Below, one piece after another: positions 8,138-25,824 of a stretch of DNA of 64,000 nt. This DNA comes from Myxococcales bacterium (GTDB lineage: Bacteria > Myxococcota > Myxococcia > Myxococcales > JAJYLH01). Each line of letters starts with the position of its first letter. The stretch's first letter is position 1. The stretch lies in assembly GCA_021787845.1 (NCBI GenBank), contig JAJYLH010000006.1, positions 62,001 through 126,000 of the forward strand, given 5' to 3'. A model generated the notes under the pieces. That model searched no databases. It saw nothing but the letters and a program-made list of their open reading frames with translations, and was not told the DNA's origin. The position numbers were made by a program, and so were the translations under genes.

Positions 8138-9690
8138 TGGCGAGGCTCTCGGCGGGGGTCGAGATCAGCTCGTCGGCGATCCGCCTGGCCCTGGTCAGCT
8201 TCCGGCCGAACCCGACCGTGGTGCAGGTGCTCGAGCAGGAGCTGGGGCGCGGCGAAGACGCGCGCGCCGGCGCCATCGCCGCCCAGGCGCTGGACCGGCT
8301 GCGGGCGAAACACGCGAACGTCCACCTCGCGTTCACCCCCGGCCGCCCGGGGGCGATGCGCCATCAGCTCTTCGTCACTCCCAAGCGCTTGCGGCAGGCG
8401 GAGCTCAAGGCCCTGGCGCTGCGCGAGCTCAAGCGGGACTCGGCGCTCGACCAGAACAGCGCCCTGGTCGCGCTGGAGCGGCTGGGCCCCATGGACGGAC
8501 CCGCTGCGGGCGACACCCATCTGTTGGTCGCGCTCGCGAAGGGCGAGGTGGAGCCGGCGGCGGCGGCGCTCTTGAACGAAAGAAAGGTGGTGCGCTCGGC
8601 GACCAGCTCGGCGATGGCGCTCTACCGGGCGGCGGCGGTCTCGGACCTTCCGACGCAGGGCGTGACCGCTCTCGTCCTCCTGGATCAGCGCCACAGCTCG
8701 CTCATCGTTCTCGACGAGGGGCTCCCCCGTTTCTTCCGGGACCTTCCCGGCCTCTCCGGCGCGCGCGAGGTGGTGAGCGAAGGGGCGGCGTCCCAGGCGC
8801 TGGCCCGCGAGCTGGAAATCTCGCTCGTCTATTTCGCCCAGCAGCACCGTCCGAAGCAGGTCGAGACGGTGATGGTGGTCGGCGCGCCGGCGCTGGCGGA
8901 CCCGGTCGCCCATTCCCTGGAGGAGAGCCCCAAGTACCGGGTCGTCCGGTTCGGGCCGTCGCCCAAGCTCGCGGTCGACCCGGCCGTGAAGGGGCCCTTG
9001 TCGCCCTTCGCGGTCGCCATCGGGGCGGCGCTGGGGCCGAAGACGCGGCCGGTGCCGGACGTGCTCCCGGTGGAGCTGAAGGGCCGGCCCGAGCGGGCCA
9101 TCGCCTTCGTCGGCATCGCGCTCTTGGTCGTGGCGCTGATGACCGTCATCGTCCAGGTCCGCCGCGGCCGCTTCGTCGCGTTCGAGCGGGAACAGACGCG
9201 CCTTTCGACCTGGCGGGACAGGTACCAAGACGTCGCCCGCAAGGTGCAGAACGCCAAGAAGATCGACGCGGAGCTGGCGCAGGCGCAGGCATGGAAGCAT
9301 CTGTTCGACCACTACGACCGCTACCACCGGCGGGCGGCGGAGCTGTTCTACGCGCTGCCGGCGGCGCTTCCGGCCGACGCCAAGCTGACAAGCCTCCTGC
9401 TGGCGCCGCCGCTGCCGTCGGCCGGGGGCGAAAAGACGGTGCCGTCATCCAAGGCGCCGAACTGGCAGTTGAAGCTCAAGGGCATCGTCGAGGCCCAGGA
9501 CCTTCCGAGCGCCCAGACCGAGCTCGCGTCGCTCGTGGCCAACGCCCGCAAGCTTCCCGCGGTGACCGACGCCGTCCTGGAACCGATCACGCAGCCGACG
9601 ACGAAGGAAGACGCGAAGCAAGGCGCGCTCCGGCTTCCGTTCACGCTCGACCTCTCGGTGCGCGACACCATCGAGGAGCTGGAGCCATGA
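8137..9690 (+). CDS. PilM-PilN fusion (GspL-like) assembly protein
   Basis: 517 residues. Residues 1-310 look like the actin-like PilM/GspL cytoplasmic domain (MARLSAGVEISSSAIRLALV start; LVLLDQRHSSLIVLDEG and ELEISLVYF segments). One membrane helix lies at about 319-340 (FVGIALLVVALMTVIVQV), and the remaining 175 residues, with a coiled segment, match a PilN-like periplasmic domain. In many type IVa pilus loci these are two genes; here they are one chain, as in GspL. The TGATG overlap with the GspF gene and ATGA overlap with the next gene indicate a tight operon. Confidence 0.85.
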   Translation: MARLSAGVEISSSAIRLALVSFRPNPTVVQVLEQELGRGEDARAGAIAAQALDRLRAKHANVHLAFTPGRPGAMRHQLFVTPKRLRQAELKALALRELKRDSALDQNSALVALERLGPMDGPAAGDTHLLVALAKGEVEPAAAALLNERKVVRSATSSAMALYRAAAVSDLPTQGVTALVLLDQRHSSLIVLDEGLPRFFRDLPGLSGAREVVSEGAASQALARELEISLVYFAQQHRPKQVETVMVVGAPALADPVAHSLEESPKYRVVRFGPSPKLAVDPAVKGPLSPFAVAIGAALGPKTRPVPDVLPVELKGRPERAIAFVGIALLVVALMTVIVQVRRGRFVAFEREQTRLSTWRDRYQDVARKVQNAKKIDAELAQAQAWKHLFDHYDRYHRRAAELFYALPAALPADAKLTSLLLAPPLPSAGGEKTVPSSKAPNWQLKLKGIVEAQDLPSAQTELASLVANARKLPAVTDAVLEPITQPTTKEDAKQGALRLPFTLDLSVRDTIEELEP

Positions 9691-10307
9691 GCGCTCCCGT
9701 CCTCCAGCGGCGCAAGTCCACCCTTCCGAAACCGATCCTCGCCTTGGGGGCCGCTCTTCTCTTGTGCGGCTTGAGCTACTACGCGCTCGTCTATCGCGAG
9801 GACGCCGAGACGGTGGACGCGCGAGCGACGGCGGACCAGTACCGGGCCGAGGTGGCTCGGGCGACGCGCTACCTCGAGGGGCGGCCGGACAACGAGCATT
9901 CGCTCGCCACCATCCAGGGCGCGGCGGCGGCGCTCGACCGGATGGTTCCCCAGGGCCGCGACGACGTTCCGGTCCTCCAGTACCTGCAGACCCACGCCGC
10001 CGCGCTCGGCATCGCGGACTTCAAGGGAGACGTGGTCGGCGGAATCGTGATGCCCGAGGAAACCCAGGTGGCCAAGACGGACCCCGAACGTCGGCTGCCG
10101 ACGTCTCCGGCGCATCTGAAGGGGCAGATCATCACGATGGACTTCACCGCGAGCTACCGCGACTTCCTCGCGTTCGAGAAGGAAGTCGCGACCTCGCCGC
10201 GGCTGATCGAGCTGCTCGACATTTCCCTCAAGCGACGGCCACCGACACCGCTGTCGCCCGGCGAGTCCGTTGGCGCCCACCTCGAAGTGAGGTACCTCTA
10301 CCAGTGA
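9687..10307 (+). CDS. PilO/GspM-like inner-membrane assembly protein
   Basis: 206 residues with a short cytoplasmic N-terminus, one membrane helix at about 16-34, a coiled-coil stretch (TADQYRAEVARATRYLE) and a ferredoxin-like C-terminal domain (MDFTASYRDFLAFEKEVA). This is the PilO layout, and the protein lies where PilO is expected. It would pair with the PilN part of the preceding fusion. The start at 9687 overlaps the previous stop by four bases. Confidence 0.85.
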   Translation: MSAPVLQRRKSTLPKPILALGAALLLCGLSYYALVYREDAETVDARATADQYRAEVARATRYLEGRPDNEHSLATIQGAAAALDRMVPQGRDDVPVLQYLQTHAAALGIADFKGDVVGGIVMPEETQVAKTDPERRLPTSPAHLKGQIITMDFTASYRDFLAFEKEVATSPRLIELLDISLKRRPPTPLSPGESVGAHLEVRYLYQ

Positions 10308-10858
10308 CGCTCTTGGCCCGCCGGGGGATGCTCTTCTCGCTCGCGGCTCTCGCGGCGCTGCCGGCGTGCGGCCTCTTGGCCCCGCAGCCGGACGCGGCGA
10401 ACGTGCCGCCGCTCGACATCCCGCCTCTGGCCAGACAGCCGCCACCCGCGAGCGCGAAGGACGCGCGGCCGGCGTTCCCGAGCCTGGACCGGGTCCGCCG
10501 CGACCCGTTTCTCACCCAGGCGGAGCAGGACGCCCTCGAGCGTCCGGCGCCGGTGGTCGAGCCGGCGGTCGTGGTCCCCAAGTGGCACCGCCGGCTCCCG
10601 CGTTCGAAGCCGGCTCCCATCCGCCACATGGCGCTCGAATTCCAGAGCTGGATCGGCGGGGGCGGCAAGCAGCGCGCGATCGCCCGCGACGAGAAGTCGG
10701 GGCGGACCCTGCAACTGTGGGTCGGGCGGAAGTTCGGTGACTGGACGGTGATCAAGCTGACCAGCAGCGAGATCGTGCTCCAGTACAAGGACGGCCGGAC
10801 CACCGACACCTACAAGTTCCAGGTCCCCCTGAAGACCAGCCCCTGGTCGTCGCCGTGA
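10304..10858 (+). CDS. PilP-like lipoprotein of the pilus alignment complex
   Basis: 184 residues from GTG at 10304, which overlaps the preceding TGA; an in-frame ATG at 10328 is an alternative. The signal peptide ends in lipobox LPAC. A proline-rich linker with RRDPFLT (the usual PilP RDPF motif) leads into a compact C-terminal domain that resembles the PilP/GspC homology region. It should bridge the PilN-PilO complex to the secretin in the periplasm. Confidence 0.8.
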   Translation: MTLLARRGMLFSLAALAALPACGLLAPQPDAANVPPLDIPPLARQPPPASAKDARPAFPSLDRVRRDPFLTQAEQDALERPAPVVEPAVVVPKWHRRLPRSKPAPIRHMALEFQSWIGGGGKQRAIARDEKSGRTLQLWVGRKFGDWTVIKLTSSEIVLQYKDGRTTDTYKFQVPLKTSPWSSP

Positions 10859-10891
10859 TAAAAGCACGGTAGCCGACAACGAGGTTTTCCC

Positions 10892-12895
10892 GTGGAGCCC
10901 TCGACCCGACATCGCCCGAACCCGAGCGCGCTCACGCTCTGCTTGACCGCAGCCGCTACCCTCTTTGCCGGCGGCTGCGGCGCGACCCGGCCGCTGTTGG
11001 AATCGGCCCGGCCGTGGGACGTGGCGGCGGAGTCGGTCCGCCACGTGCCTCTGCCGATCCCGGTGATCGCGCCCGAGCTGCCGGGGCCGATCTCCTCGAT
11101 GCCGGCCCACCTGAACCCGATTCTCGAGGAGAAGGTCACCCTCCGCAGCGATTCGACCGACATCCGGTCGCTCCTGCTCGGCCTCTCGAAGCAGACCGGG
11201 CTGAACATCGTCCTCGGCACCGAGGTCAAGGGGAACGTCTCCGCCTACCTGAACGACGTCACCGTCCTCGATGCGCTCAAACGCATCGTCCAGCCTCTCG
11301 GGTACGAGCTGGACATCGAGCCGACGTACGTGCGGGTCTTCGCGCCCGAGGTGGAGACGCGCATCTACCGGCTCCAGTACCTGCGCGGCGAGCGCAAGGG
11401 CGAGACGACGGTGTCGATGATGGACATGTCGGCGACCGGCGGCCAGGTCGGCACCACCGGCACCGGCGCTGGCGGCGGCACCACCCAGAGCCCGATGATG
11501 ATGGGCGGCATGACGGGGGGCGCTGGTGGCGCGGGCGGGATGATGGGCAACATCTCGACGAGCCACGTCAAGACGACCTTCGACGTCGACTTCTGGAAGG
11601 ATCTCGGCGGCGAGCTGCAAGCGATCGTCTTCGACGGCGCCGACCCCAAGGATTTGGTGAGGGTCGACAAGAAGAGCGGGGGCATGAGCGTCTACGAGCT
11701 CGCCCCGTCGACCAAGGAGCTCAAGTCGGAGCCGTCGTCGGGCGGCGGGCAGATGCCGGTGATCGAGGAGAAGCGCGCGCCCGGCGGGCTCCAGCAGCTT
11801 CGGAGCCTGACCATCGACTCGCTCAGCGGGACCATCATGGTGCGCGCCAAGCCCGACGTTCTCGACGAGGTCGGCCGCTACCTGAACGTGCTCAAGGACA
11901 CGCTCTATCGGCAGGTGGTGATCGACGTCCACATCCTCGAGGTGTCGCTCCAGGACGAGAAGCATTTCGGCATCGATACCCAGAACCTGCCGCTGCTCCC
12001 CTCGGACCTGGTCAACAGCATCTTCGGAAGCAACTACTTCGGGCCCAATGCCAGCTCGAACCCGCGCGTGACGACCCCCTTGGGGTTCCCCAACCTCTCC
12101 ACCGGCGCCGGGGTCACCACCGGCGCCAGCGCCGGGGCCCCCCCGTTGACCGAGGAGATTCCCCCGTACGGCTTGACCATCGGCGCCACCACTCCGAGCG
12201 GGGACCAGTACAAGGTGATCATCGCCGCCCTCGCCAAGCTCGGAGACGTCAAGGTGGTGGCCGCTCCCCGGCTGACCGCGCTCAACAATCAGATGGCGAT
12301 GGTCAAGGTGGTCCGCGACCGCGTCTTCTTCATCTCCCAACAGGGCCAGAGCCTGGTCTCCTGGAACGGCGGCGCCCAGAACACCCAGCAGACGCAGATC
12401 ACCACCGAGGTCGTTCCCGAAGGGGTGGCGGTGGAGATGACGCCGATCATCGGTGACGACGGGAGCGTGACCCTGATGATCCACCCCTCCTTCTCGGTGA
12501 TCGCGGACGTGGTGCCGGTGCCGACCGCGGGCGGCAACGCGGGCGGCGCCCCCGAGGTCGACCGGCGCGAGTTCGACTCGACCGTCCACATCCAGAACGG
12601 CCAGACCGTGGTCCTGGGCGGCCTCGTCACCCAGCGCACCGAACGCGAGGAATCCGGTTTGCCCTATTTGAAGGATATCCCGTACTTCGGGGCGCTTTTC
12701 CGCCACACCGACGTGGTGACGGCCAAGAGCGAGATCATCGTGCTGTTGACACCGGAGGTGCAGGGGCCGAACCTGGCGGAGGAGATGGTGAATCATCAGG
12801 CGGAATCGGTGGGCGAGCCGGCGCCGTTTCCTCAGCCGAAGGAGACGCCGGGCCGCGGCAAGCCGCCTATCGTCATCGAGCCGTTGAAGCCCTGA
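10892..12895 (+). CDS. Secretin lipoprotein, MshL/PilQ/GspD family
   Basis: 667 residues from a GTG start, with GAGG 7 bases upstream. Lipobox AGGC at the N-terminus. An STN/N0-N1 region at about 76-150 is followed by a glycine- and methionine-rich loop (about 187-218), then DFWKDLGGELQAIVF and TIDSLSGTIMVRAKPD, which are features of MSHA-pilus secretin MshL. The C-terminal secretin barrel (about 440-635) includes VKVVAAPRLTALNNQMA and NGQTVVLGGLV. It forms the outer-membrane gate for the filament. It follows the PilP-like gene by 33 bases. Assignment to secretins is firm; the MshL subtype is my reading of the motifs. Confidence 0.93.
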   Translation: MEPSTRHRPNPSALTLCLTAAATLFAGGCGATRPLLESARPWDVAAESVRHVPLPIPVIAPELPGPISSMPAHLNPILEEKVTLRSDSTDIRSLLLGLSKQTGLNIVLGTEVKGNVSAYLNDVTVLDALKRIVQPLGYELDIEPTYVRVFAPEVETRIYRLQYLRGERKGETTVSMMDMSATGGQVGTTGTGAGGGTTQSPMMMGGMTGGAGGAGGMMGNISTSHVKTTFDVDFWKDLGGELQAIVFDGADPKDLVRVDKKSGGMSVYELAPSTKELKSEPSSGGGQMPVIEEKRAPGGLQQLRSLTIDSLSGTIMVRAKPDVLDEVGRYLNVLKDTLYRQVVIDVHILEVSLQDEKHFGIDTQNLPLLPSDLVNSIFGSNYFGPNASSNPRVTTPLGFPNLSTGAGVTTGASAGAPPLTEEIPPYGLTIGATTPSGDQYKVIIAALAKLGDVKVVAAPRLTALNNQMAMVKVVRDRVFFISQQGQSLVSWNGGAQNTQQTQITTEVVPEGVAVEMTPIIGDDGSVTLMIHPSFSVIADVVPVPTAGGNAGGAPEVDRREFDSTVHIQNGQTVVLGGLVTQRTEREESGLPYLKDIPYFGALFRHTDVVTAKSEIIVLLTPEVQGPNLAEEMVNHQAESVGEPAPFPQPKETPGRGKPPIVIEPLKP

Positions 12896-12906
12896 CGGAG
12901 GCCGTC

Positions 12907-14142
12907 ATGCGCAAGGCAACCGAGAGCGCCGCCGCTCGCCGGCAGCGGTTCGGCTTTACGCTGATCGAGCTGACGGTGGTCATCGCCATCATCGCCATCC
13001 TGGCGGGAGCGCTCCTGCCGGTGATCACCCAGCCGTATCTGAACGCCCGGCGCGCCGAGCTCGACCAGGAGATGGGCGCCGTCCACGACGCGATCGTCGG
13101 GCATCCCGAGGTCGGCGACTACGGATACTTGGGGACCATGGGAGCGCTGCCGATCACCTCCGATGGCAACAACTTCATCTCGGCCCACCTGCTCGCGCCC
13201 AACGGCGACGCCCCCACCCTGCCCAACGCGAGCTTCGCGAACGGCATCGTGGTGGGATGGAACGGCCCCTACCTGACCGCGACCACCCGCGACCCGCTGC
13301 TCGACCCGTGGGGGACCCGCTACCGCGTCTACTTCAACCCGGCCGACGGGACCCAGTGGCTGTTGCAGTCGGCGGGCCCCGACCGGGTCTTCGCGCAGCC
13401 CGGCTCCACCACGGACACCGACGACATCTACTTCCCCTCGCCGATACCTCCGGTGGCGGCCGGCGGCACCACCAGCATCGTCTATTGGGGATGGGAAGCG
13501 AAAGCGCTCACGGTCTACGTCGAGAACGTTCCTCAGGGCACCCGGGTCTACCTGCACTATCCCGCTGGCGCCGGGGGCGGCGTCGACACGACCTGGCCTG
13601 GCACCTACACCACCGATGCGAATGGCAAGGTCACCTTCTTGGTGGAGGGTAGCGGCGTCATCCCCTACGGGCACGACTACGTGGAGTTCGAAATCCCCAA
13701 CGGCACGCCTCCCTGGTACACTCGCGACATCACCATCGACACGCCGGTCGTGGTCGCGACGGTGCAAGGCCCCCGAGTGCCGTGGATCACGACCTGCAGC
13801 CTCTCGACCCCGGCCACCAATGGGGCCGCGTTCAACTGCCCGGCGCTGGCCATCCCGCCGAACAGCTCGGTGGAAGCCGACTTCTCGGGGACCATGAAAG
13901 GCTCATCGACGAACCCCTGTAGCCTTCACGTGGGCTTGGCGACCGCCAACCCCACCCAAGCCGACCCCGGCCTCGACATCGTTCCGGCGGTGACGCGGAG
14001 CACGACCTGGCAATCGGTCGCCACCACCCGAACCGTGCAGTTCGCCTCCGCCGCGCAACAGGTCGATGCCACGCTCGACCTCACCGGCAGCGGTTGCACG
14101 GTCGAGGACGGCGCTCTCACTATCCAGGTGCGCTACCCGTGA
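12907..14142 (+). CDS. GspG-like pseudopilin with long C-terminal extension (2nd copy)
   Basis: 411 residues, over twice the size of a normal pseudopilin. Prepilin signal with cleavage in FG/FTLIELTVVIAIIAIL, GspG-type body with WNGPYL, DPWGTRY and QSAGPDRVF, then about 230 residues of threonine- and glycine-rich beta-type sequence without recognised family. GGAG lies 5 bases before the ATG at 12907, 11 bases after the secretin stop. The extension could form an exposed tip domain; this is inference. Confidence 0.9.
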   Translation: MRKATESAAARRQRFGFTLIELTVVIAIIAILAGALLPVITQPYLNARRAELDQEMGAVHDAIVGHPEVGDYGYLGTMGALPITSDGNNFISAHLLAPNGDAPTLPNASFANGIVVGWNGPYLTATTRDPLLDPWGTRYRVYFNPADGTQWLLQSAGPDRVFAQPGSTTDTDDIYFPSPIPPVAAGGTTSIVYWGWEAKALTVYVENVPQGTRVYLHYPAGAGGGVDTTWPGTYTTDANGKVTFLVEGSGVIPYGHDYVEFEIPNGTPPWYTRDITIDTPVVVATVQGPRVPWITTCSLSTPATNGAAFNCPALAIPPNSSVEADFSGTMKGSSTNPCSLHVGLATANPTQADPGLDIVPAVTRSTTWQSVATTRTVQFASAAQQVDATLDLTGSGCTVEDGALTIQVRYP

Positions 14143-14993
14143 CCGTCGAGAGGCGAGCGTTCACGCTCCTCGAGCTGATGGTGGCTCTCGCCATCCTCGG
14201 CATCCTCTCGGTCATCAGCCTGAGCCTGGTCGAGGACATCGAATTCACCCGCGGGCGCCGGGCGCAGGCCGACGCCGTCGCCCTGTACAACGGCATCTTC
14301 GGGACCTACCAGACGAGCGGCTACTACGGCGACGTGGGCCAGCTTCCGCCCCAGCCGCTCAACCAGTCGATGCTGACCTCGCCCCCGAACAACGTCGTCC
14401 CCCACGTGCGCGCGGACAGCTCTCAGGGCATCGTCAGCGCCGGCTGGCAGGGGCCGTACCTCCTGGGGCCGAGCGGCTACGGCGGCGACGGGATGGACAC
14501 CGACCCCTGGGGGGACCCTTGGTCGATCGACCCGACCACCGGGAGCATCCGCAGCGCCGGCCCCGACGGCTACCTCGGCGACCAGGACGACATCGTCATG
14601 CCGCAGGGGGGCACGACCGACCTGCCGCTGGTGGCGCCCACGCCTCTGAGGGGCGGCGGCGCTACCGCTTCCCTCGCCGTGGTGGTGCTCGACCCGGCCA
14701 CCCTCGACCCGCTGACCGGCAGCGACATCCTCGTCCAGGTCAGCGACACCGGGAGCTGCGCCAGCAAGGGCCACGCCACCATGATGCCGACCAACGCGCC
14801 TTCGCCCGGCCAGGACACCTTCACCATCCGCAACCTCCATCCGGGCCGGCACCTCGTCGAGGCCGCGCACATCGCCCCCGATCCCGCCAATCCGAATGGG
14901 TACCCGACGACCTACATCCTCGACAAGGTCGACACCGTCGCCGCCTACGCCAACAACCAGGGCTGGGCGACCGTCCGGGTCGTGCTCAGGTAA
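14139..14993 (+). CDS. GspG-like pseudopilin with C-terminal extension (3rd copy)
   Basis: 284 residues from GTG at 14139, overlapping the previous stop (GTGA). Prepilin signal RRA/FTLLELMVALAILGIL carries alanine rather than glycine at position -1. The body has WQGPYL, DPWGDPW and SAGPDGYLGDQDD, then a roughly 120-residue beta-type extension with DTFTIRNLHPGRHLVEA, similar to carboxypeptidase-regulatory-like folds. Probably a minor pseudopilin of the same machine. Confidence 0.88.
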   Translation: MTVERRAFTLLELMVALAILGILSVISLSLVEDIEFTRGRRAQADAVALYNGIFGTYQTSGYYGDVGQLPPQPLNQSMLTSPPNNVVPHVRADSSQGIVSAGWQGPYLLGPSGYGGDGMDTDPWGDPWSIDPTTGSIRSAGPDGYLGDQDDIVMPQGGTTDLPLVAPTPLRGGGATASLAVVVLDPATLDPLTGSDILVQVSDTGSCASKGHATMMPTNAPSPGQDTFTIRNLHPGRHLVEAAHIAPDPANPNGYPTTYILDKVDTVAAYANNQGWATVRVVLR

Positions 14994-15142: not shown

Positions 15143-18100
15143 CTACGCCCCGCTCGCGACCTTGTAGTCGCCCGCGTCGCGCGACAGGCCCCGGCCCAGG
15201 TCCTCTTCCTGCTCGACGAACCGCTGGAGCAGCGGCACCGGACAGACGAGCCGCCCTTGCGCGTCGGGCACGAGCGTATAGGCGAGCTCGAGCCGGTCCA
15301 GCGTCGCCGCGTAGAGCGCGGTCGACGGCTCGAGACCCGCCTCGGAGAGCCTCTTGCGCAGGTCCCCGCGGTCGACCGGCGGCCCCCAGAGCGCCGCCCG
15401 CACCGCCGCCCGCCCGAGCACGTCCCGCCGCCAGTGCTTGAACTCGCTCGCCAGCTCGGGATTGCGGTAGAGCGCCCTCTCCACCTGCTTCTCGCCGAAG
15501 GTCCGCGCGGTCGGGCCGAGCCCATCGATCAGCGCCTTGCACACCAGCGCCACCAGGTGGCCGCGACACGCGGTCTCGTCCAGAATCCGCTCGACGAGCT
15601 CCGGCGCTTCGTACGAGAGCCCCAGCGCCTCCATCGGCCTCGTCGCGAGGTCCCGCGCCGCGTCCCGGTCGAGCGGCGAGAGCCGGATGAGCTCGCCGAA
15701 ATTGCGCAAGGGATTGTTCGGGTTCAAGAACGCCGCCGCGTAGAGGTTCCAGAAGCCGGCGAGGATGAACGCGGCGGTTCCCTCCTCCGACAAGGTCCGC
15801 ATCGCCTGCACCAGCGGATACTTGTTCTTCGCGTCCTTCAGGATGAAGGCATCCGCCTCGTCGATCATCCACAGCTTGGGGTTCTTCCGGGTGCCCGCCG
15901 CGAGGTCGAGAAACCCCTCGCTGTGCGCCGGCACGGGCTGCGACAGCTCCCGCGCCATCCGAACGACGAGGTCGTCTTCGAACAGGGTCAGGTGGTGCAC
16001 CTCGACTTCCGGCCGAGCCGCGAGCCGCCGCTCCACTGCCTTGAGCAGGCTCGACTTCCCCATCTGCCGCGGCGCGACGACGATGAAGTTGCGCAGGCTC
16101 CGGTCGGTGATCAGCCGGATCTCCCGCTCTCGACCGACGAAGAGCGCCTGGTCGCTCACCCCGCCACCGATGGTGTACGGGCTCAGCTCCGCCACCGGCC
16201 GCTGCGCCACGAGCACCCGCTCGAGCTCCTTCGCCGGCTGGTCCGCGAAGATGAGATCCCGCAGCTCGTCCTGCCCCAGAACGACGAAGGACAGCCGCCC
16301 CACCGCTTCCAGCGCCGCCCGGCCGTTCTGACCGGCGGTCAGGTCCAGCGCCAGGCCGACGGCAGGACCGGTGCCGCCCGCATGGACCGCTTGTGCAAGC
16401 TGGCTGGCCTTCTCCTCCTCAGCGGCGGCGCCGGTCAGCACCGCGAGCTCGGTCCGGCTCGGGAAGCGCAACGTGAGGTTCGGCAGGTCGACCGCCCAGA
16501 GGTCGAAGGCGGCGTGTTTCTCCCCGAGCTTCGCGCCCAATGCCTCCGCGAAGGCCCGCGCCGCGCCCGACGGCGATGCCGTCGCCGCCACCGCCCGATC
16601 GAGCTTCTCCCGCGCGAGCTTGGCCCCCGCCAGCGCCTCGTCCAGCCGCCTGGCCCGCGTCAGCGCCCGCTCGACCAGCTTCACCTGCGGGAGCGCGTAG
16701 CGCCTGATCTCCGTCGGGTCGCGCCCCACCTGCTCGAGGATCGGATCGCGCCCCGTTCGGCGCCTCGCCAGGAGAACGAGCGCCAGGAGCAGCAAGAGCC
16801 CTCCTGCTATCTCAGCGGGCAACGCCCAGCTCGAGCGCCGCCTGAGAACCAGCTCCCCCGTCCAGCGCCCCCCGACAAGCTCGGTCGACCGCGCGGTCAG
16901 CTCCACCTGTGCCGTCTTCCCGACCGCGCCCGGCGCCGCGAACCCGACCCGCACCCGCTCGCCCGGTTTCAGGTCGGGGATCTGCTCGACGGGAGCGGTG
17001 CCGGCCGGCTTCGAAGCGGAGAAGAAGCGCGGCGCCAGGACGAGCGGGCCGGTGGGGGCGTCTCCCTGGTTCGCCACCTCGACCTGGACGGTCGGGCTCT
17101 TTCCGGCCCGGTCGAGCGAAACGAGCCGGAAGCGCACGACCGGCGCGCGCACGTGCACCCGGACGTTCACCGTGGGGCCTCGGCCGGCCGCCGTCCACAG
17201 CGCGAGCGGGACCTCGACGTCTTGCGGTGCCTTTGCGGTGCCGGGCACCACGGCGATGCCGGCGTCGAGCTTCGCCTGCTCGCCGGCCGCCAGGCGCGGC
17301 ACCACCGCCGGCGGGATGAGCGACAGCGTGCCAGGCATCGGCGCTCCCGCCAAGCGCAACCAGAACGCGCCGCCGCTTTCGTCGTGGACCACGAGCGACA
17401 CGGCGCCCGCGCGGTCGGCCGAGGCCGGAGTCGTCTTCCGTACCTCGAGCGAGAGCTTCAGCGTGGCCTTCGAAGCGGCGGGAGGCGACGCCTTCAACCC
17501 GCCGTGCTCGTCGGCCTTCAGGCGGACGAGCCGCCCGTCGTCCTCGCGAAACACCTTGCCAGCAACGAGGTTCGCAAACCGCGCGGCGCCAAGGTGCAGC
17601 TCGGCGACGAGGGCGTCACCCGGCCATCGATAGAGCGAGACGCCACCGTCGGCCGTCGCGACCGCGAGGAGCGTGCCGGCCGTGTCGAGCGAGAGCGCTC
17701 TCGGCTTGCCCGGCAGACCGAAGCTCGCGATCTGCCGGCCGGTCTTGGCGTCGAACGCCTGTGCCTTTGCGTCCGCGGTGGCGACGACCAACGTCCGGCC
17801 CTGGTCGGCGAAGACCGCGCCCGCCGCGGGAGCTGCGAACGACAAGCGGCGGACCTCCTTGCCCGTCACCGGATCGACCACACGTCCGGAGCCGTCGGCG
17901 AGAGCGGCGAGCACCGCGTTTCCCGCCGGAGCGACCGCGAGCGCGGTGACCCGCGCGTCGAACGAAATCGATCGGAGGACCGTGCCCCGCGCCAAGGACC
18001 AGATCTCGAGCTCGTCCTGCGAGGCGAAGGCGACGAGCTTTCCGTTCCCGGAGAACGCGAGCGCTCCCGCTCCTCCCGGAAGCTGGCCGGCCGGCCGCGC

Positions 18101-19429
18101 CTCGGCGGTCGCGAGGTCCACCAGCGTCGCCCGCCCGTCCCGCGTCAGGACGGCGAGCTGCTCACCGGAAGGGGAAAAGGCGACCTGCTGCACTCCCGCC
18201 TGGCCGAGGCGCATCCGCCGGACGACCCGACCGGAGGCGAGCTCCAGCCATTCGACCGTGCCGTCCGCCGCGCCGGCCGCGACCCTGGCGCCATCGGGGG
18301 AGAGCGCGACCTTTGCCGGGCCGGCGAGCGTCAAGAGCGGCGGCTTCGGCAGGCCGCTCTGCAGATCGACCGCCCGCACCACGCCGTCCTCGCCGCCGAG
18401 AACCGCCACCGAGCCATCGGCCGTCAGCGCCACCGAAGCCGCGCCGGCGGGTTGTCCGACAAAGGGGGTAAGAGCGGTCCCGCTTCCCAAATCCCACCGG
18501 AGGACCTCGTCTCTCGCCGCGCCCGCGACGGTGCGACCGCCGTCCAGGAGCGCGAGCGACCGGCAGCAGTCGACGTTCGAGGCGAAGCCAAGGCGCCTTT
18601 GGCCATCAGCCCGATCGAAAAGAGCCACGCCGCCCGCCGCGGACGCGGCAAGGACGAGCGCGCCGCCGGCAGCGAAGGCAACACCGGTCACCTCGCCGCC
18701 CGGGTCGTAGCTCGCGAGGACTCTGCCCGCCGCCGGGTCGACCAGCGTCACCGTGCCGGCCCGGGTCCCGACCGCGACAACAGCTCCCGAGTTCGAGAAG
18801 GCGAGCGCGGTCGCCTCCGCCGCGCGGCCCGGGAACGTGTGGACCTCGCCCGCACCGGGACCGACGAGGCGCAGGCTTCCATTGGCGAGGGCGAGCGCGA
18901 GGGTCCTGCCGTCCGGCGAATAGGCGGCGACTCGCGCGGGCCCGACGCCCGCCAGCGGCGCCGGAGGCGTACCCACCGTCGCGGCGAGCGGCGGCGCATC
19001 CGCTGTGCCGAAGAGCACCCGCCTCCCGTCGGGCGAAAGGGCGAGGAGCACGACCGGGCCCTTCGCGTCCGCCAGGAACAGCGTCTTCCCGCTGCCGCGC
19101 GCGACGACCTCGACCCGCCCGCCGCCGGTGCCCGCCGCGACCACCGTCCCGTCCGCGCTCGCCGCCACCCGGTCGACGCGGGAACCGAGGTCGACCCGCC
19201 GCACCTCGCGGCCAGCGGTGTCCCAGATTCTCAGGTGGCCGTCAGCGGAGCCGGTAACCAGGAACGCTCCCGCCGCCGCGACGGCGCGAAAGCCCTCGGC
19301 CGGCGCCCATCGCGCGCCCGCCAGGACCTCCGGCGGCTCTCCCGGAGGAACGAGGGGCGAGAGCGCCCCGGCCGAACCGCTCGCGAGGAAGAGCCCCGCG
19401 GCCAGCCCCGCCCATCGTGATGTTTTCAT
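15143..19429 (-). CDS. Signal peptide - 14 WD40-type blades - beta-sandwich - TM - AAA/STAND-like ATPase
   Basis: 1428 residues from ATG at 19429; the open frame extends upstream without signal-peptide character. Residues 1-22 are a secretion signal. About 40-605 contain 14 WD40-like blades (for example GHLRIWD, GTVTLVD, GVVRAVD, DELEIWS, GGVSLYR), enough for two seven-bladed propellers. About 656-860 are beta-rich, CARDB-like. A membrane helix (IAGGLLLLLALVLLA) lies near 868-888, followed by RRR. The C-terminal cytoplasmic part has VGREREIRLI, P-loop APRQMGKSS (about 1118) and Walker B LWMIDEADAF (about 1187), as in AAA/STAND ATPases. This suggests a periplasmic sensor coupled to an ATPase. 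Convergent with the pseudopilin operon. No family name is known to me for the full architecture. Confidence 0.9.
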   Translation of the reverse strand: MKTSRWAGLAAGLFLASGSAGALSPLVPPGEPPEVLAGARWAPAEGFRAVAAAGAFLVTGSADGHLRIWDTAGREVRRVDLGSRVDRVAASADGTVVAAGTGGGRVEVVARGSGKTLFLADAKGPVVLLALSPDGRRVLFGTADAPPLAATVGTPPAPLAGVGPARVAAYSPDGRTLALALANGSLRLVGPGAGEVHTFPGRAAEATALAFSNSGAVVAVGTRAGTVTLVDPAAGRVLASYDPGGEVTGVAFAAGGALVLAASAAGGVALFDRADGQRRLGFASNVDCCRSLALLDGGRTVAGAARDEVLRWDLGSGTALTPFVGQPAGAASVALTADGSVAVLGGEDGVVRAVDLQSGLPKPPLLTLAGPAKVALSPDGARVAAGAADGTVEWLELASGRVVRRMRLGQAGVQQVAFSPSGEQLAVLTRDGRATLVDLATAEARPAGQLPGGAGALAFSGNGKLVAFASQDELEIWSLARGTVLRSISFDARVTALAVAPAGNAVLAALADGSGRVVDPVTGKEVRRLSFAAPAAGAVFADQGRTLVVATADAKAQAFDAKTGRQIASFGLPGKPRALSLDTAGTLLAVATADGGVSLYRWPGDALVAELHLGAARFANLVAGKVFREDDGRLVRLKADEHGGLKASPPAASKATLKLSLEVRKTTPASADRAGAVSLVVHDESGGAFWLRLAGAPMPGTLSLIPPAVVPRLAAGEQAKLDAGIAVVPGTAKAPQDVEVPLALWTAAGRGPTVNVRVHVRAPVVRFRLVSLDRAGKSPTVQVEVANQGDAPTGPLVLAPRFFSASKPAGTAPVEQIPDLKPGERVRVGFAAPGAVGKTAQVELTARSTELVGGRWTGELVLRRRSSWALPAEIAGGLLLLLALVLLARRRTGRDPILEQVGRDPTEIRRYALPQVKLVERALTRARRLDEALAGAKLAREKLDRAVAATASPSGAARAFAEALGAKLGEKHAAFDLWAVDLPNLTLRFPSRTELAVLTGAAAEEEKASQLAQAVHAGGTGPAVGLALDLTAGQNGRAALEAVGRLSFVVLGQDELRDLIFADQPAKELERVLVAQRPVAELSPYTIGGGVSDQALFVGREREIRLITDRSLRNFIVVAPRQMGKSSLLKAVERRLAARPEVEVHHLTLFEDDLVVRMARELSQPVPAHSEGFLDLAAGTRKNPKLWMIDEADAFILKDAKNKYPLVQAMRTLSEEGTAAFILAGFWNLYAAAFLNPNNPLRNFGELIRLSPLDRDAARDLATRPMEALGLSYEAPELVERILDETACRGHLVALVCKALIDGLGPTARTFGEKQVERALYRNPELASEFKHWRRDVLGRAAVRAALWGPPVDRGDLRKRLSEAGLEPSTALYAATLDRLELAYTLVPDAQGRLVCPVPLLQRFVEQEEDLGRGLSRDAGDYKVASGA

Positions 19430-19560: not shown

Positions 19561-22500
19561 CTACCCGAGCGAAGCGGTCAAGGTGTACGAGTCGCAGGTG
19601 ACCGGGGCGCCCGAAACCCGGAAGACGCGGACATAGACGGTGCTCGGCCAAGTGTCGTTGCGGGTCGTGCAGTTGTTGCCGCTCGCCGTACAGGTGTCGT
19701 CAAAGGTGTACTGGTCGAGAACCGTGCCGCACCCGCCCCAGTTGCCGCAGGCCGTGGTGATCACCTGCAGCTTGAACTCCGGCGTGGAGACCCCGCTGAC
19801 GATCACGGTCGGGTTGCTCGAGAAGCGGATGTTGACGGTGCCCGAGTAGCCCGAGTGGTAGTAGGCGGTTTCGGCGAAGCTGACCTCGTACCAGTCGCTC
19901 AAGGTTGCGGCGGGAATCTTGCCCGGGGTCGAGTTGACGGTCCCGCCCATGCCGACGAAACCCAAGTTGGTCAACGACGCGGGGCACGCGCCGGTAGTCG
20001 TCACCGACGAGTCGTCCTGGCACTCGCAGCCGTTCGAGAAGATCTTGTCGACGTCGTACCACCCCGCGTTGCAGGAGGAGACGACGCAGGTCGCGCTCTG
20101 GCAGAGGGTGCCCGACGCGTTCGGCGCGGAGCCGCAGATGACGTTCGCCGGGTTGTCGATCTGCCCATCGCAGTTGTCGTCGATGCCATTGCAGACCTCG
20201 GGCTGCGGAAGCTGCTGGCCGGCGCAGGCGCCCCAGGAAGCGGTCCCGGGGTACGCCGGCGGATAAGTGGTGTAGGTCCCGTTGCCGTTGTTGATCGACG
20301 GGGTGACGGAGACGAACGGTGCGTCGCAGGTCTGGCTGCCGCCATGGCAGATGCCGACCCCGTCGGTGCCGGCGGGGCCGTTGTAACAGTACTGGGTGAG
20401 GGTGTCGTTCGCGGTCGTCCCCGGCGCGTTGTCGATGTAGCCGTCGCAGTCGTCGTCGACGCCGTTGCACGTTTCCGGCTCGGAGAGCGCCACGTCGGGC
20501 ACGCAGGACTGACTCTGACCGTTGATGCAGTTCTGGGTCTTTACCGAGCACCGCCCGTAGCCGCAGGCGCTCTGGCCGAGGCCGTCGTCCACCAACCCGT
20601 TGCAATCGTTGTCGGTCCCGTCGCAGACCTCCGGCGTCGGCCCGACGTAGTCGTGGCAGGCCTGGTAGGAGCTGACGCCGGACCCCGGCGTCGCGTTGCA
20701 GTACTGGATGCCGTCCTTGCAGTCTCCGACCCCCCGGTCGCCCGCCGGCAGCGTGCTCGGCCAGCAGGCGAGGTGCAAGGTGTCGTTGGCGTTCGTGCCC
20801 GGCACGTTGTCGACGTAGCCGTCGCAATCGTTGTCGAAGCCGTCGCAGACGTCGGTCTGCGGCTCGACGTCGGGGGTGGTCACCGTCCAGGTCGCGGTAC
20901 CGCTGCCGACGACCGCGGTGCAGGTCTGCACGCCCGGTTTGCAGAGGCCGACGTTCTCGGTGCCGTTCGGCCCCCAGTAGTACCACCGCTTCAGGCTGTC
21001 CTGTTGCATCGACGCGGTGAACCCGTTCACGGACTGATCCTGGTTGTCCACCACCCCGTCGCAGTTGTTGTCGAGCCCGTCGCAGATCTCCGCCGTCTTC
21101 TTGGCCACGTCTCCGTTGGGCGGGCACACGTTCGGCGCGTCGTTGGGGGCGACCGCGATGCCGTCGGGCCCCCCGTAGGTCGGATTGGTCTGGCTGACAT
21201 CGCACGGCGGGGCGGTCATCTGGCCGTCGACGAGCGGGGCCGTGCTACAGGCGCAGTTCGGCAGCGTCTCCCGGCACACGCCCAAGCCGCAGGTCGAGTA
21301 GCCGAGGCCGGGGCCGTTCGGGTCGCTGGTCAGCTCGTCGATCTTCCCGTCGCAGTCGTCGTCCTTGTTGTCGCAGGCCTCGTTCGTCTTCTTGGAAGCG
21401 TCGCCGTAGACGGTGATGTTCGGGCCCGGCGTGTAGCTCGCCACCACCGTCGCGTGGCAGCCCGCCGTTCCCGGAGTGCAGCCGACGCAGGTCTGGGTGA
21501 CCCCGTTGATGCAGTTGTCGATGTGGATCTGACAGACGCCGTTGCCGCAGTATTGCATCCCCAGACCATGGAAATGCCAGGCCTGGAGCCAGGACGGAGT
21601 CGGGTTGGGAATCTCGTCGACGATGCCGTCGCAGTCGTTGTCGACGAGGTCGCACGTCTCCTGGGTCGGCAGCTTCGAGGTGCAATTGATCGCATCGAAG
21701 TTCGCGGGCGGGCTGTCCGGGTTCACGTAGCCGCCGGTCGAATTGTAGTAGGCCACCTCGTCGAAGCAGACCGGCTCGGCCTCTCCCGGCTGCGGCTGCG
21801 CGTCGCACTTGACCAGGTCGCCCATCGTGTTGCACTGCCGGGCGTTCAGGTTGCAGGCTCCGACCCCGCAGGAAATCGGCTTGTTGATCCAGTGCCCGCT
21901 GCTCGACGGGTACTGGACCATGTCGCAGCCGTTGTCGAGGGTCATCGCGAAGTTGATGTCGCGCTTGTCCTGCGTGAACGCCGGGGTCGTGTACACCGGC
22001 GCGCTGGTCCCGCCGCCGCTGAGCAACCGTTCCTGGCGCACGAAACCCGCGAGCTGGTCCCGGCCGCCGACCACCTTCGAGTACACCGTCCCATCGTCTT
22101 CGGCGGCGATGCCCACCGACATCGGCTCGTTGCCGCTGGAACCCTGGGAAGGCGCGATGTAGAAGTCCATCGAGTAGAGGGTGTTCGCGGTCAAGCCCCC
22201 GCCCGGAAGTCCGTCGTAGTGGAAGAAGTGCTTCATCAACGTGTAATCGGAACCGACCGGCATTTCGTCCGCGTACACCGGTAGATATCCTTGCGCGTAG
22301 GCTTGCAGGTCGCTTTGGGAAAACGCGGTGGCGTCGACGACCCCGCCGATGAGCACGAAGACGTAGATTCCCATCTCCGGATTGGTGCCGGACGGAACGT
22401 CGAAGAGCCGCTTCACGGTGATGGTCAGCGAGCCGGGGTAGCGGATGTCCTTCCCGGCGGGGAATGGCCCGGTCATGAAGGTCTGCGCCACCTGCTTCTC

Positions 22501-22758
22501 GAGGCGGTCGTCGTTGCCGCCGCCGGTCGCCACGAAGTAGGCGCTGTCGACCAGCTTCAGAGCGCTGGGGTCCGAGCAGATCAACGCGGTCGGGTCCGCC
22601 GAGTACGTCGCCGTCGGGCAGGTCACCGGGACAGCCAGGGAGCTGTCCGCCTGCTGCGTCGAGCCCAGCGGCGGCGCTTCCCCTGAGCCCGGGCTGGTGC
22701 ACGCGCAGGCGGTCAAGACGGCCAGCGCGAGAGCGGATCGAGCGAAGGGGCCGGACAT
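19561..22758 (-). CDS. MopE-type repeat lipoprotein, cysteine-rich
   Basis: 1065 residues from ATG at 22758, preceded by GGAGG. Lipobox LTAC near residue 19. An N-terminal domain of about 330 residues without recognised family is followed by seven copies of the putative metal-binding motif CNG-x-D-x-DCDG-xx-D (CDLVDNDCDGIVD, CDNKDDDCDGKID, CDGLDNNCDGVVD, CDGFDNDCDGYVD, CDGTDNDCNGLVD, CNGVDDDCDGYID, CNGIDDNCDGQID). The C-terminal 200 residues are beta-type. The motif is named for the surface copper protein MopE of Methylococcus and is abundant in Myxococcota surface proteins. Acidic loops suggest calcium binding. Likely surface exposed; ligand unknown. Confidence 0.9.
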   Translation of the reverse strand: MSGPFARSALALAVLTACACTSPGSGEAPPLGSTQQADSSLAVPVTCPTATYSADPTALICSDPSALKLVDSAYFVATGGGNDDRLEKQVAQTFMTGPFPAGKDIRYPGSLTITVKRLFDVPSGTNPEMGIYVFVLIGGVVDATAFSQSDLQAYAQGYLPVYADEMPVGSDYTLMKHFFHYDGLPGGGLTANTLYSMDFYIAPSQGSSGNEPMSVGIAAEDDGTVYSKVVGGRDQLAGFVRQERLLSGGGTSAPVYTTPAFTQDKRDINFAMTLDNGCDMVQYPSSSGHWINKPISCGVGACNLNARQCNTMGDLVKCDAQPQPGEAEPVCFDEVAYYNSTGGYVNPDSPPANFDAINCTSKLPTQETCDLVDNDCDGIVDEIPNPTPSWLQAWHFHGLGMQYCGNGVCQIHIDNCINGVTQTCVGCTPGTAGCHATVVASYTPGPNITVYGDASKKTNEACDNKDDDCDGKIDELTSDPNGPGLGYSTCGLGVCRETLPNCACSTAPLVDGQMTAPPCDVSQTNPTYGGPDGIAVAPNDAPNVCPPNGDVAKKTAEICDGLDNNCDGVVDNQDQSVNGFTASMQQDSLKRWYYWGPNGTENVGLCKPGVQTCTAVVGSGTATWTVTTPDVEPQTDVCDGFDNDCDGYVDNVPGTNANDTLHLACWPSTLPAGDRGVGDCKDGIQYCNATPGSGVSSYQACHDYVGPTPEVCDGTDNDCNGLVDDGLGQSACGYGRCSVKTQNCINGQSQSCVPDVALSEPETCNGVDDDCDGYIDNAPGTTANDTLTQYCYNGPAGTDGVGICHGGSQTCDAPFVSVTPSINNGNGTYTTYPPAYPGTASWGACAGQQLPQPEVCNGIDDNCDGQIDNPANVICGSAPNASGTLCQSATCVVSSCNAGWYDVDKIFSNGCECQDDSSVTTTGACPASLTNLGFVGMGGTVNSTPGKIPAATLSDWYEVSFAETAYYHSGYSGTVNIRFSSNPTVIVSGVSTPEFKLQVITTACGNWGGCGTVLDQYTFDDTCTASGNNCTTRNDTWPSTVYVRVFRVSGAPVTCDSYTLTASLG

Positions 22759-23440: not shown

Positions 23441-24031
23441 TCAGTGCTTCAGGGGCTCGCCGCGCCTGGATTTCCCGTAAGTGATGGCGTCGGTCGGATG
23501 GGAGACGGCAGGGCCCTTGAGGAGCGCCTCCTTGTCGAAGGTCGCGAGCGGCCGGGAGAGGACCGCCGGCGAGTGGGTGCCGGTGTCCATCCGGATCGCG
23601 TCCTTCGGACAGGCCTCGACGCAGAAGCCGCAGACGATACAGCGCAGCTCGTCGATTTCGAACCGGGTCGGGTACTTCTCGATGCCCTCCTGGTCATACT
23701 CGCCCGCCTCGATGTAGATGCACTGCGCCGGGCAGACGGTGGCGCACATGTAGCAAGCGACGCAGCGGGGCTTGCCGTCCTCGCGGGGAACGAGCCGGTG
23801 CATGCCGCGATAGCCAGGAGGGTAGGCGCGCCGCTCCTCGGGGTAGGAGACGGTGGCGATGAGGTTCGCGCCCTGGCGCTCGCCGACCTCGCTGTTCAGG
23901 TCGCGCTCGCCGAAGAGGTTGCGGAAGAAGTGGCGGCTCGTGATCAGGAGGCCGCGGACCAGCTCGCGCAGGTAGAGCCTCTCGCGCGGGCCGTAGTCGG
24001 GCTCCCGGATGGTGACGGTGTCGATCGGCAT
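23441..24031 (-). CDS. nuoI: NADH-quinone oxidoreductase subunit I
   Basis: 196 residues. Two [4Fe-4S] ferredoxin motifs, [12 protein letters not shown] and [12 protein letters not shown], carry clusters N6a and N6b between NuoG and NuoB in the peripheral arm of complex I. The N-terminal helix [14 protein letters not shown] packs on the membrane arm. Last gene of the nuoABCDGHI set in this window; a small convergent gene lies downstream, so nuoJ-N do not follow. Confidence 0.96.
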
Positions 24032-24074
24032 CGGTCCTACTCTCCGCTTGCGAATCTAGTGGGCGGCAGCGGTC

Positions 24075-25565
24075 TCAGCCATGCTCGGATGCGGCAGCGC
24101 TCTCGGTAGGCAGGAGCGTTTCCTTCCCGCTGCGGCGCACTCCCACGGCGCCGACGACCCAGGCGAGGAGGATGACCAGCTCGACGATGCCCATGATCGC
24201 CGCGCCGTGCATGCCGCCGGCGAGGATGACGACTCCGGTAAGGGCGACGTTGGCGATGGACGCCGGGAGCAAGAGCTTCCAGCCGAGGTTCATCACCTGG
24301 TCGTAGCGGAAGCGGGGATAGGTCCAGCGCACCGCGAGGGACAGCCAGCAGAAGAAGACGGTCTTGGCGAGGAAGGTGAGCACCTGGAGGCCGGCGAGCC
24401 AGGTCGGGCCGAGGTGCCCGGCGAGCCAGCCCTCGCCCCAGGGCAGGTGGTAGCCGCCGAAGAACAGGGTGGTGAAGAGGCCGGCGAAGACCACCACCTC
24501 GACGAACTCGCCGATCATGTAGATGCCGAATTTGAGGCCGGAGTACTCGATGAAGTAGCCGACGATCTCGCTGTCGCCCTCGGGGAGGTCGAAGGGGGCG
24601 CGCTTGATTTCGGCGCTGGCCGCGGCGAAGTAGGCGACGATGGCGAGCGGCTGGTAGAAGACGCCCCAATTCGGCAGGAAGCCGAAGAGGTGGCCGGTCT
24701 GCTGGCTCATCATCGAGTCGAGGCGGAGGGTGCCGAAAATCAGCATCAGCCCCACCAGCGTCAGGCCCAGCGTCACCTCGTAGCTGATCATCTGCGCCGA
24801 CGCGCGCATCGCGCCCAACAGGCCGTACTTGTTGTTCGACGCCCAGCCGCCGAGGCTCGTGCCGAGAACGCCGATGGACGCGATGGCGAAGATGTAGAGC
24901 AGGCCCTGGTTCAGGTGCGGCGCGACGCCGATGTGCAGGTGCTCGCCCCAGAGGGTGAAGTCGGGGCTCAGCGGAATCACCGCGAAGAGGATGACGGCGG
25001 GAGCGAAGGCGATGGCCGGCGCGAGGTGGAAGAGGGTCTGGTTTCCCATCGCCGGGACGACCTCTTCCTTGGTCATCATCTTGCCGACGTCGGCGAGGAT
25101 GTGGGGGATGCCCCAAAACGCGTGGTTCTTCAAGCCCGGCAGGCGGGCCCGGTTCGGGCCGATGCGGTCCTGGATGAACGCGCTCCACTTGCGCTCGCCC
25201 ATGGTGAGCAGCGTCGCCAGCAACATCACGAAGGCCAGCACGACGAAGAGAATGTTCGCGATCGCGTTGCCCCACAGCTCCGCTGCCGGGAGGCTCGCAC
25301 CCAGGACCCGGAACAGCCCCACGATCGCCCAGTCGCCGAAGATCATCATCGCGGCCCAGACGGCGCAGAGGACGACCAGGTAGCCGATGAGCGCGACCGC
25401 GCCGGCGATTTCCTTGGGCCGGAACGGCGCGTAGAAGTTGCTCGGCGGTAGCCCTTGCGGACCCTTCGGCGCCTCGCGATGCACGTCGTGCCCGGTCAGG
25501 GCTCCGGCACCGATGCCGACCGGCTCCATCGCCTGGTTCTGCGGGTGGCTCATGGTGCTGCTCAT
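24075..25565 (-). CDS. nuoH: NADH-quinone oxidoreductase subunit H
   Basis: 496 residues from ATG at 25565 (GAGG upstream); longer than the usual 325-430 because of an N-terminal extension of about 50 residues. Multiple membrane helices, and the quinone-site signature loops GERKWSAFIQDRIGPNR and EIKRAPFDLPEGDSEIVGY with conserved acidic residues are intact. Forms the junction of the proton-pumping arm with the quinone tunnel. A hydrophilic loop near residues 345-385 is also unusually long. Confidence 0.95.
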   Translation of the reverse strand: MSSTMSHPQNQAMEPVGIGAGALTGHDVHREAPKGPQGLPPSNFYAPFRPKEIAGAVALIGYLVVLCAVWAAMMIFGDWAIVGLFRVLGASLPAAELWGNAIANILFVVLAFVMLLATLLTMGERKWSAFIQDRIGPNRARLPGLKNHAFWGIPHILADVGKMMTKEEVVPAMGNQTLFHLAPAIAFAPAVILFAVIPLSPDFTLWGEHLHIGVAPHLNQGLLYIFAIASIGVLGTSLGGWASNNKYGLLGAMRASAQMISYEVTLGLTLVGLMLIFGTLRLDSMMSQQTGHLFGFLPNWGVFYQPLAIVAYFAAASAEIKRAPFDLPEGDSEIVGYFIEYSGLKFGIYMIGEFVEVVVFAGLFTTLFFGGYHLPWGEGWLAGHLGPTWLAGLQVLTFLAKTVFFCWLSLAVRWTYPRFRYDQVMNLGWKLLLPASIANVALTGVVILAGGMHGAAIMGIVELVILLAWVVGAVGVRRSGKETLLPTESAAASEHG

Positions 25566-25616
25566 CGGTGCCTCACATTCAATCGACTGACTTGCACGAT
25601 CGACTGAGCGCATCCT

Positions 25617-25790
25617 TCCCGCTCATCCCGAGCGCGGTCGAACGATGAGCGCGCGACCGCGGCCTGGATCGCTCGTCCCTCGACTGCCCTCGGGATGAGC
25701 GGGGTGGATGCGCTCGGGATGAGCGGGGTGGAGTCGCTCGGGATGAGCGGGGTGGATGCGCTCGGGATGAGCGGTTCGGGTTTCCGAAAG
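25617..25790. repeat. REP-like palindrome plus 24-bp tandem repeat
   Basis: Between nuoG and nuoH lies a long imperfect inverted repeat (arms containing GCTCATCCCGAGCGCGGTCG and CTCGGGATGAGCGG). It is followed by 24-base tandem units starting at 25689, 25713 and 25737 plus a partial unit at 25761, each beginning CTCGGGATGAGCGG, so the tandem array is built from the right arm of the palindrome. Similar arms recur at 29518, 34989, 38463, 47042 and 54640. Confidence 0.85.
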
Positions 25791-25824
25791 CGATTGCCAT
25801 CGGCACGGACCATTCCGCGTGCGC

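Follow-up and report, generated by a model that had tools for sequence, protein, structure and literature searches.

Fusions between WD40 propellers and STAND ATPases that have been described so far are mostly cytosolic, the known Avs sensors are cytosolic single-chain proteins, and to our knowledge all STAND-type defence receptors of bacteria are cytosolic. Multicellular bacteria including Beggiatoa and myxobacteria also possess MoxR-vWA ternary conflict systems, in which an inactive STAND module (iSTAND) carries an N-terminal TIR domain or other effectors (Kaur et al. 2020, PMC7159879; 2021, PMC8195603), and work from 2024 on antigen sensors of multicellular bacteria predicted periplasmic sensors of the C-type lectin kind in related organisms (PMC10907252). 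Here we analyse a gene from a 64,000-nucleotide stretch of the genome of a Myxococcales bacterium (assembly GCA_021787845.1, contig JAJYLH010000006.1, positions 62,001 to 126,000), hereafter called the window, whose own positions are used throughout. The gene, at 15143..19429 on the minus strand, encodes a protein of 1428 amino acids (P0001) that is predicted to join two exported propellers, through a single transmembrane helix, to a cytoplasmic ATPase. Together with its relatives, this layout leads us to favour, with some reserve, the view that this protein is the sensor component of a two-gene transmembrane switch, a signalling and probably abortive-defence system.

Layout of the sensor protein

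The gene was delimited by its open reading frame and by a full-length homolog. The frame opens at 19651, and the ATG at 19429 was chosen as a sensible start; with the stop at 15143, this gives a 1428-residue product on the minus strand, at the coordinates of the original prediction. On inspection, the N-terminus resembles a type I signal peptide (residues 1-22, 19364..19429; MKTSRWAGLAAGLFLASGSAGA|LS, with the putative site at AGA|LS), found at the same place in relatives. Directly after it comes a PLVPPGEP motif (residues 25-32, 19334..19357), aligned with a PLVPxGEP motif that also trails the signal peptide in relatives (family-wide form PLVPxGE), so that both inspection and this shared motif support the signal peptide proposed earlier.

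Two predicted seven-bladed WD-like propellers follow, at residues ~52-325 (18455..19276) and ~332-600 (17630..18436). A WD profile iterated on relatives found 14 repeats within residues 52-600, seven per propeller, with one extra spurious match inside the signal peptide, and many WD40 and other propeller families of Pfam were reported across the same stretch. An AlphaFold2 model of the ectodomain (residues 24-870, one homolog in the alignment) has an unbroken array of strands in both propellers, with predicted local distance difference test scores (pLDDT) mostly of 70-90, as fits two times seven blades; at an overall predicted template modelling score of 0.41, the relative placement of domains in this model is unreliable. 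The top Foldseek match of the ectodomain is the tandem propeller 2ymu (E 3e-35), and Utp21, Pwp2 and Apaf-1 were also matched. Profile repeats, modelled strands and tandem-propeller matches thus agree with the 14 blades originally claimed. A PADLOC HEAT-ARM_XIII match of the full protein was set aside as a cross-match over the WD repeats, not the ATPase.

Between propellers and membrane lies a low-confidence region rich in beta-strands (residues ~655-865, 16835..17467), which is kept in a homolog from Candidatus Thiosymbion. Of the beta-sandwich region claimed earlier, the strands were indeed predicted (residues ~640-865), and the sandwich identity is less certain, given a pLDDT of 25-77 and a non-significant CARDB match (E 0.19); the model is compatible, at low confidence, with what are probably Ig/CARDB-like sandwiches. 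The transmembrane helix LPAEIAGGLLLLLALVLLA (residues 870-888, 16766..16822) has the highest mean hydropathy of the protein (2.33). It is followed by RRR, as had been stated, and relatives also carry a transmembrane segment at the corresponding position. Judged by these sequence features, the propeller region is exported and would reside in the periplasm.

On the cytoplasmic side, a helical and alpha/beta domain with a family-conserved FPLNL ... WVxP..EL block (residues ~905-1080, 16190..16717) precedes the AAA/STAND-like ATPase core (residues ~1083-1330, 15440..16183), which was recognised by profile matches and motif conservation. The core holds an intact P-loop, VAPRQMGKSS with K1125 (Walker A APRQMGKSS, residues 1119-1127, 16049..16075), and a Walker B motif, LWMIDEADAF with D1190 and E1191 (residues 1186-1195, 15845..15874), both located by alignment. 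In an alignment of 51 sequences, K1125 and D1190 never vary and E1191 is kept in 92%, and the STAND-type motif set of an upstream FVGRERE, APRQMGKSS and LWMIDEAD is near invariant; the VGRE-type motif, P-loop and Walker B of the original prediction are therefore all present. A predicted winged-helix-like domain with a conserved VPL motif (residues ~1335-1428, 15146..15427; model pLDDT 70-90) ends the protein. Altogether, the window protein carries the transmembrane-ATPase module of the family (SPYxxxGG..FFGR..RQxGKS..DEAD..AGFW.LY..VPL), with transmembrane helix and export signal. Matches to FabH/KAS III in the cytoplasmic linker (E 0.002-0.1) were taken as chance.

The nSTAND1 family (PF20703) matched residues 1090-1428 above cut-off (3.2e-8), a match lost when a longer segment of the window protein served as query. 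Profiles of AAA_22, TniB and nSTAND1 matched 23, 21 and 17 of 24 members, respectively, and the GxP motif of STAND proteins is not kept in the sensor, where the alignment has TGQRANLIA in the family and TACRGHLVA in the window protein. The STAND label given earlier is thus reasonable, though not exclusive, and because the GxP motif is absent we use "STAND-like" instead. The helical C-terminus of the ATPase, at a pLDDT of 70-90, gave weak matches to the archaeal ATPase sso1545 (E 0.009), RuvB and CED-4, and a PDB sequence search with the ATPase sequence or its profile returned no match.

Relatives and a recurrent partner gene

Thiomargarita and Ca. Thiosymbion yielded the first relatives in a scan of GTDB contigs. 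P0002, the protein from Thiosymbion (1134 amino acids), aligns with the window protein from PLVPxGEP to the C-terminus (E 1e-72) and has the same order of signal peptide, propeller, beta-rich region, transmembrane helix and ATPase, so that the complete domain order recurs in another genome. The Thiosymbion propeller (L006:7610-11011) holds in-frame ILGN micro-repeats (GNILGNILGNILGN) within its blades, as if expanding. Whole-genome profile searches covering Myxococcota and Gammaproteobacteria found the transmembrane-ATPase module strongly in nine Myxococcota genomes (9-14 Mb) of one other family, besides the window; several genomes from the Thiosymbion order also have it. Within the Thiomargarita order, 24 of 43 genomes contain it (E < 1e-50, our own count), with up to 7 matches per genome, as do 12/150 genomes of another gammaproteobacterial order; compared with these figures, its recovery from no more than 4 of 369 gammaproteobacteria drawn evenly, with one of the four matches weak, indicates a patchy distribution. 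Proteins of ~2000 amino acids, one of them on a Methylocystis plasmid, also contain the ATPase module (L034:6531-12755(-) and L153:1554-7337(+)); a plasmid search found the module in other architectures only, and not the full system.

The WD repeat counts of relatives bunch near 14 or near 7. Other ectodomains include an NHL propeller in L112, L113, L120 and L123 (TEN_NHL/NHL matches at E 1e-19 to 1e-44 for the three of these that were scanned) and short N-termini with two transmembrane segments, replacing the propeller, in L126-L137; sensors L138-L140 have almost nothing outside except the transmembrane segment. In a tree of 51 ATPase modules, proteins with the same type of ectodomain cluster together, and five changes in total are needed. 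Such swapping of the ectodomain on a constant transmembrane-ATPase part is what a receptor family would show, and variation by clade (WD40, NHL, two transmembrane segments, or none) on a shared ATPase is as expected of a sensor. The window protein joins eight Myxococcota proteins in this tree (support of 100 in the Shimodaira-Hasegawa-like approximate likelihood ratio test) on a long branch (0.79).

An all-against-all comparison of the open reading frames around the relatives revealed one gene family that recurs beside the sensors. Six of the 51 relative loci are cut by contig ends and were left out; in 42 of the 45 evaluable loci the partner adjoins the sensor, a count to be read with the caution that near-identical genomes were counted separately and independent events are fewer. 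The partner always lies on the same strand, upstream in 40 loci and downstream in 2, and many pairs overlap by 4 bp at start and stop. In one of the three loci without an intact adjacent partner, a broken one lies immediately upstream, and the partner is encoded elsewhere in the genome in G773 and G783 (not adjacent) and in G700 (locus cut by a contig end). Split or stopped frames occur in sensor or partner genes at L051/L057 (G583), L058/L061 (G622), L068 (G793), L080 (G766) and L125 (G772), and represent either pseudogenes or assembly errors.

The N-terminus of the partner is variable, being a TIR, SIR2 or XRE-like helix-turn-helix (HTH) domain, or a transmembrane segment. TIR_2 matches ranged from E 1e-29 (L105) to 1e-9, and SIR2_2 matched the L030 partner (7e-19), with the same type assigned by sequence similarity in all eight Myxococcota loci L025-L032. 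The HTH type (e.g. MRRIRASAxxVAxEIGxSREAVNNWR; profile match to the LexA-like 2kpj, E 0.008) is the commonest in the sampled loci and the only one in the clade with two-segment ectodomains. By contrast with this variable part, the C-terminal domain of ~300 amino acids is conserved. It has no P-loop and no Pfam match above cut-off, and in profile comparison nearly all of it aligns with the sensor ATPase (hhalign E 1.3e-6 and 3.7e-5). Walker A and B are retained in the sensor, and the partner retains a GGHPxLL motif, here equated with the presumptive GxP element of STAND/ATPase_2 proteins. The original view of a self-contained receptor was hence right in its layout and incomplete, since in relatives the sensor is one half of a two-gene system. 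In the clade lacking ectodomains, an opposite-strand gene of ~380 amino acids lies between partner and sensor (L138:6160-7287(-), L140:5881-7032(-)) and is a possible third component. A protein with TPR repeats and, on inspection, a CHAT-like caspase signature (HFATHG, SACETG) is encoded, also on the opposite strand between partner and sensor, at L039:4673-7948(+).

Proposed function and the window copy

In the two-gene switch that we propose, the propellers, periplasmic by their predicted location, would bind an external or envelope ligand, and binding would be relayed through the beta-rich stalk and the single transmembrane helix. The cytoplasmic ATPase, with its intact Walker A and B motifs and its STAND/AAA kinship, may then shift its nucleotide state and oligomerise at the membrane, where it would recruit its homologous and genetically linked, P-loop-less partner by AAA-AAA contact. 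Clustering could in turn activate the TIR or SIR2 NADase of the partner, or an HTH domain that redirects transcription. The layout and topology signals behind the earlier suggestion that an outside ligand controls an inner ATPase are borne out; the control itself is proposed here in conditional form, and the partner is added to it.

An immune role in particular is possible, but we would not presume it. It is tempting to speculate that the protein is a transmembrane immune receptor, whose periplasmic WD40 or NHL propeller would detect phage, predator or kin contact and whose NLR-like ATPase would assemble the inactive paralog that fires a TIR/SIR2 NADase; this reading is put forward tentatively. 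A role in conflict is favoured by the TIR/SIR2 outputs, the patchy distribution, the presence of several copies in one genome (as many as seven matches) and the broken copies, and a role in signalling by the abundance of HTH partners.

Several observations weigh against the proposed system or its defensive role. In the window genome the partner profile, positive in 10 of 12 control genomes, found nothing; a Myxococcota-weighted profile of the partner C-domain, whose positive control worked, gave a best E of 0.19; and SIR2_2 revealed no partner, no separate TIR_2 search having been made. PADLOC has no family for the sensor ATPase, the adaptor domain or the HTH-type partners, and its matches are confined to the TIR and SIR2 N-termini. 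Most of the sampled partners outside the Myxococcota and TIR clades carry HTH domains rather than NADases, so that defence is not the sole reading. Finally, the structure model of the ATPase part, built on an alignment only 3 deep, is poor (pLDDT 51) and thus gives weak evidence on its fold.

By its sequence the window gene is a member of the family, and by gene content it is an orphan. Locus inspection found no partner beside it, and all eight of its neighbours in the ATPase tree, which form its sister group, have a SIR2 partner; the genome is 98% complete and in 153 contigs, which makes loss of the partner likely, not proven. The window copy may accordingly be an orphan receptor that acts through a different output, or belong to a system whose effector has been lost. 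Immediately upstream, 131 bp from the sensor gene, a gene on the minus strand (19561..22758) for a secreted protein of the MopE type, in which DNDCDG metal-binding motifs recur, occupies the position usual for the partner in relatives. It was rejected as a substitute partner because no homolog is found next to the sensors of relatives. Upstream of the MopE-type gene, inspection identified respiratory complex I-like subunits (NuoI-, NuoH- and NuoG-like, ~23441-27543, minus strand). Downstream of the sensor gene, at 6908-14993 on the plus strand, are type II secretion genes for T2SS F, a secretin and two proteins with pilin-type N-terminal methylation motifs and unusually long C-terminal extensions.

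This neighbourhood raises the alternative of an envelope scaffold or secretion-linked ATPase that cooperates with the type II secretion cluster, given the adjoining secretin and pseudopilin-like genes and the common use of propellers as scaffolds. We regard it as very unlikely, because the secretion genes are on the strand opposite to the sensor gene and are not conserved beside relatives, whereas the TIR, SIR2 or HTH partner is. Even less credible is a membrane-anchored WD40-STAND protein of the ordinary kind, in which the first hydrophobic stretch would be no signal peptide and the WD40 region would be cytoplasmic. Such a location is usual for the described fusions, but the N-terminus is signal-peptide-like, the motif of the mature protein is conserved in relatives from two phyla, a transmembrane segment separates propeller and ATPase in relatives, and positive charge follows it.

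Two further alternatives are more serious, if still doubtful. The window copy could be a decaying, functionless leftover whose SIR2 partner was lost, which would be compatible with the switch proposed for the family as a whole. The lack of a partner next to the gene or elsewhere in the genome, set beside its constant presence in the sister group, speaks for this; the intact 1428-codon frame and the retention of all nucleotide-binding residues, despite the branch length of 0.79, argue against simple decay, and in a draft of 153 contigs the partner could sit in a gap. The family as a whole could also serve general transmembrane signalling rather than defence, passing a nutrient, cell-contact or envelope cue mostly to an HTH regulator, with TIR and SIR2 as signalling enzymes. 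That HTH is the commonest N-terminus, and the sole one in one clade, agrees with this, as does the complex behaviour of the host organisms. We nevertheless find it somewhat unlikely: where bacterial operons contain TIR or SIR2 domains, these are as a rule NADases belonging to conflict systems, PADLOC matched LmuA, ThsA and TIR effectors, and the patchy spread, the high copy number in some genomes and the broken copies resemble those of conflict genes.

If sensor and partner work as we propose, bacteria would couple sensing of the outside to effectors of the cell-death type. Should the immune-receptor reading hold, the system would share its topology with Toll-like receptors, its switch with NLRs and its sensor with Apaf-1, and both sensors and effectors would be interchangeable. 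Its modular sensors and outputs, and its occurrence in myxobacteria and Thiomargarita-related sulphur bacteria, make it directly testable.

Comparison with known systems

Neither the sensor nor the partner is covered as a unit by any model of Pfam, NCBIfam or PADLOC, in line with the earlier statement that no named family has this order, and no paper describing the pair was found in the open-licence literature, a scope in which absence is weak evidence. Apaf-1-type STAND NTPases and nSTAND1 (PF20703) have in common with the sensor a P-loop ATPase and tandem seven-bladed propellers, and the predicted end of the sensor is winged-helix-like as theirs is. Here, however, the order is reversed, the sensor is predicted to be exported, the GxP motif is not kept, and the effector belongs to a separate protein together with an inactive version of this ATPase. 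Among published concepts, that of the iSTAND ternary systems comes closest, and its likeness to the partner C-domain is one of description. Those systems need MoxR and vWA genes, whereas the counterpart here is one membrane ATPase that bears an exported propeller, and in the all-against-all neighbour comparison no MoxR-vWA pair recurred beside the sensors, the partner family alone doing so. The periplasmic sensors predicted in the 2024 study (PMC10907252) are C-type lectins and not propellers.

Avs/AVAST and other antiviral STAND proteins also combine a STAND-like ATPase with effector logic, and PADLOC gave no match to the ATPase of the present family. Thoeris, LmuA and other TIR/SIR2 NADase systems resemble its effector domains (LmuA at 3e-20 and ThsA at 8e-13 to a Myxococcota partner); the effector domain alone is in common, and the adaptor domain and membrane sensor differ. 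The AAA proteins of ~2000 amino acids (for example WP_154420413 of the Methylocystis plasmid) share the ATPase module and, in part, the domain before it, at ~30% identity, with an N-terminal part that is much longer and differently built than that of the sensor. We regard the system as a variant among STAND-like conflict or signalling systems, in which the propeller sensor is inverted and exported and the paralogous adaptor is split off.

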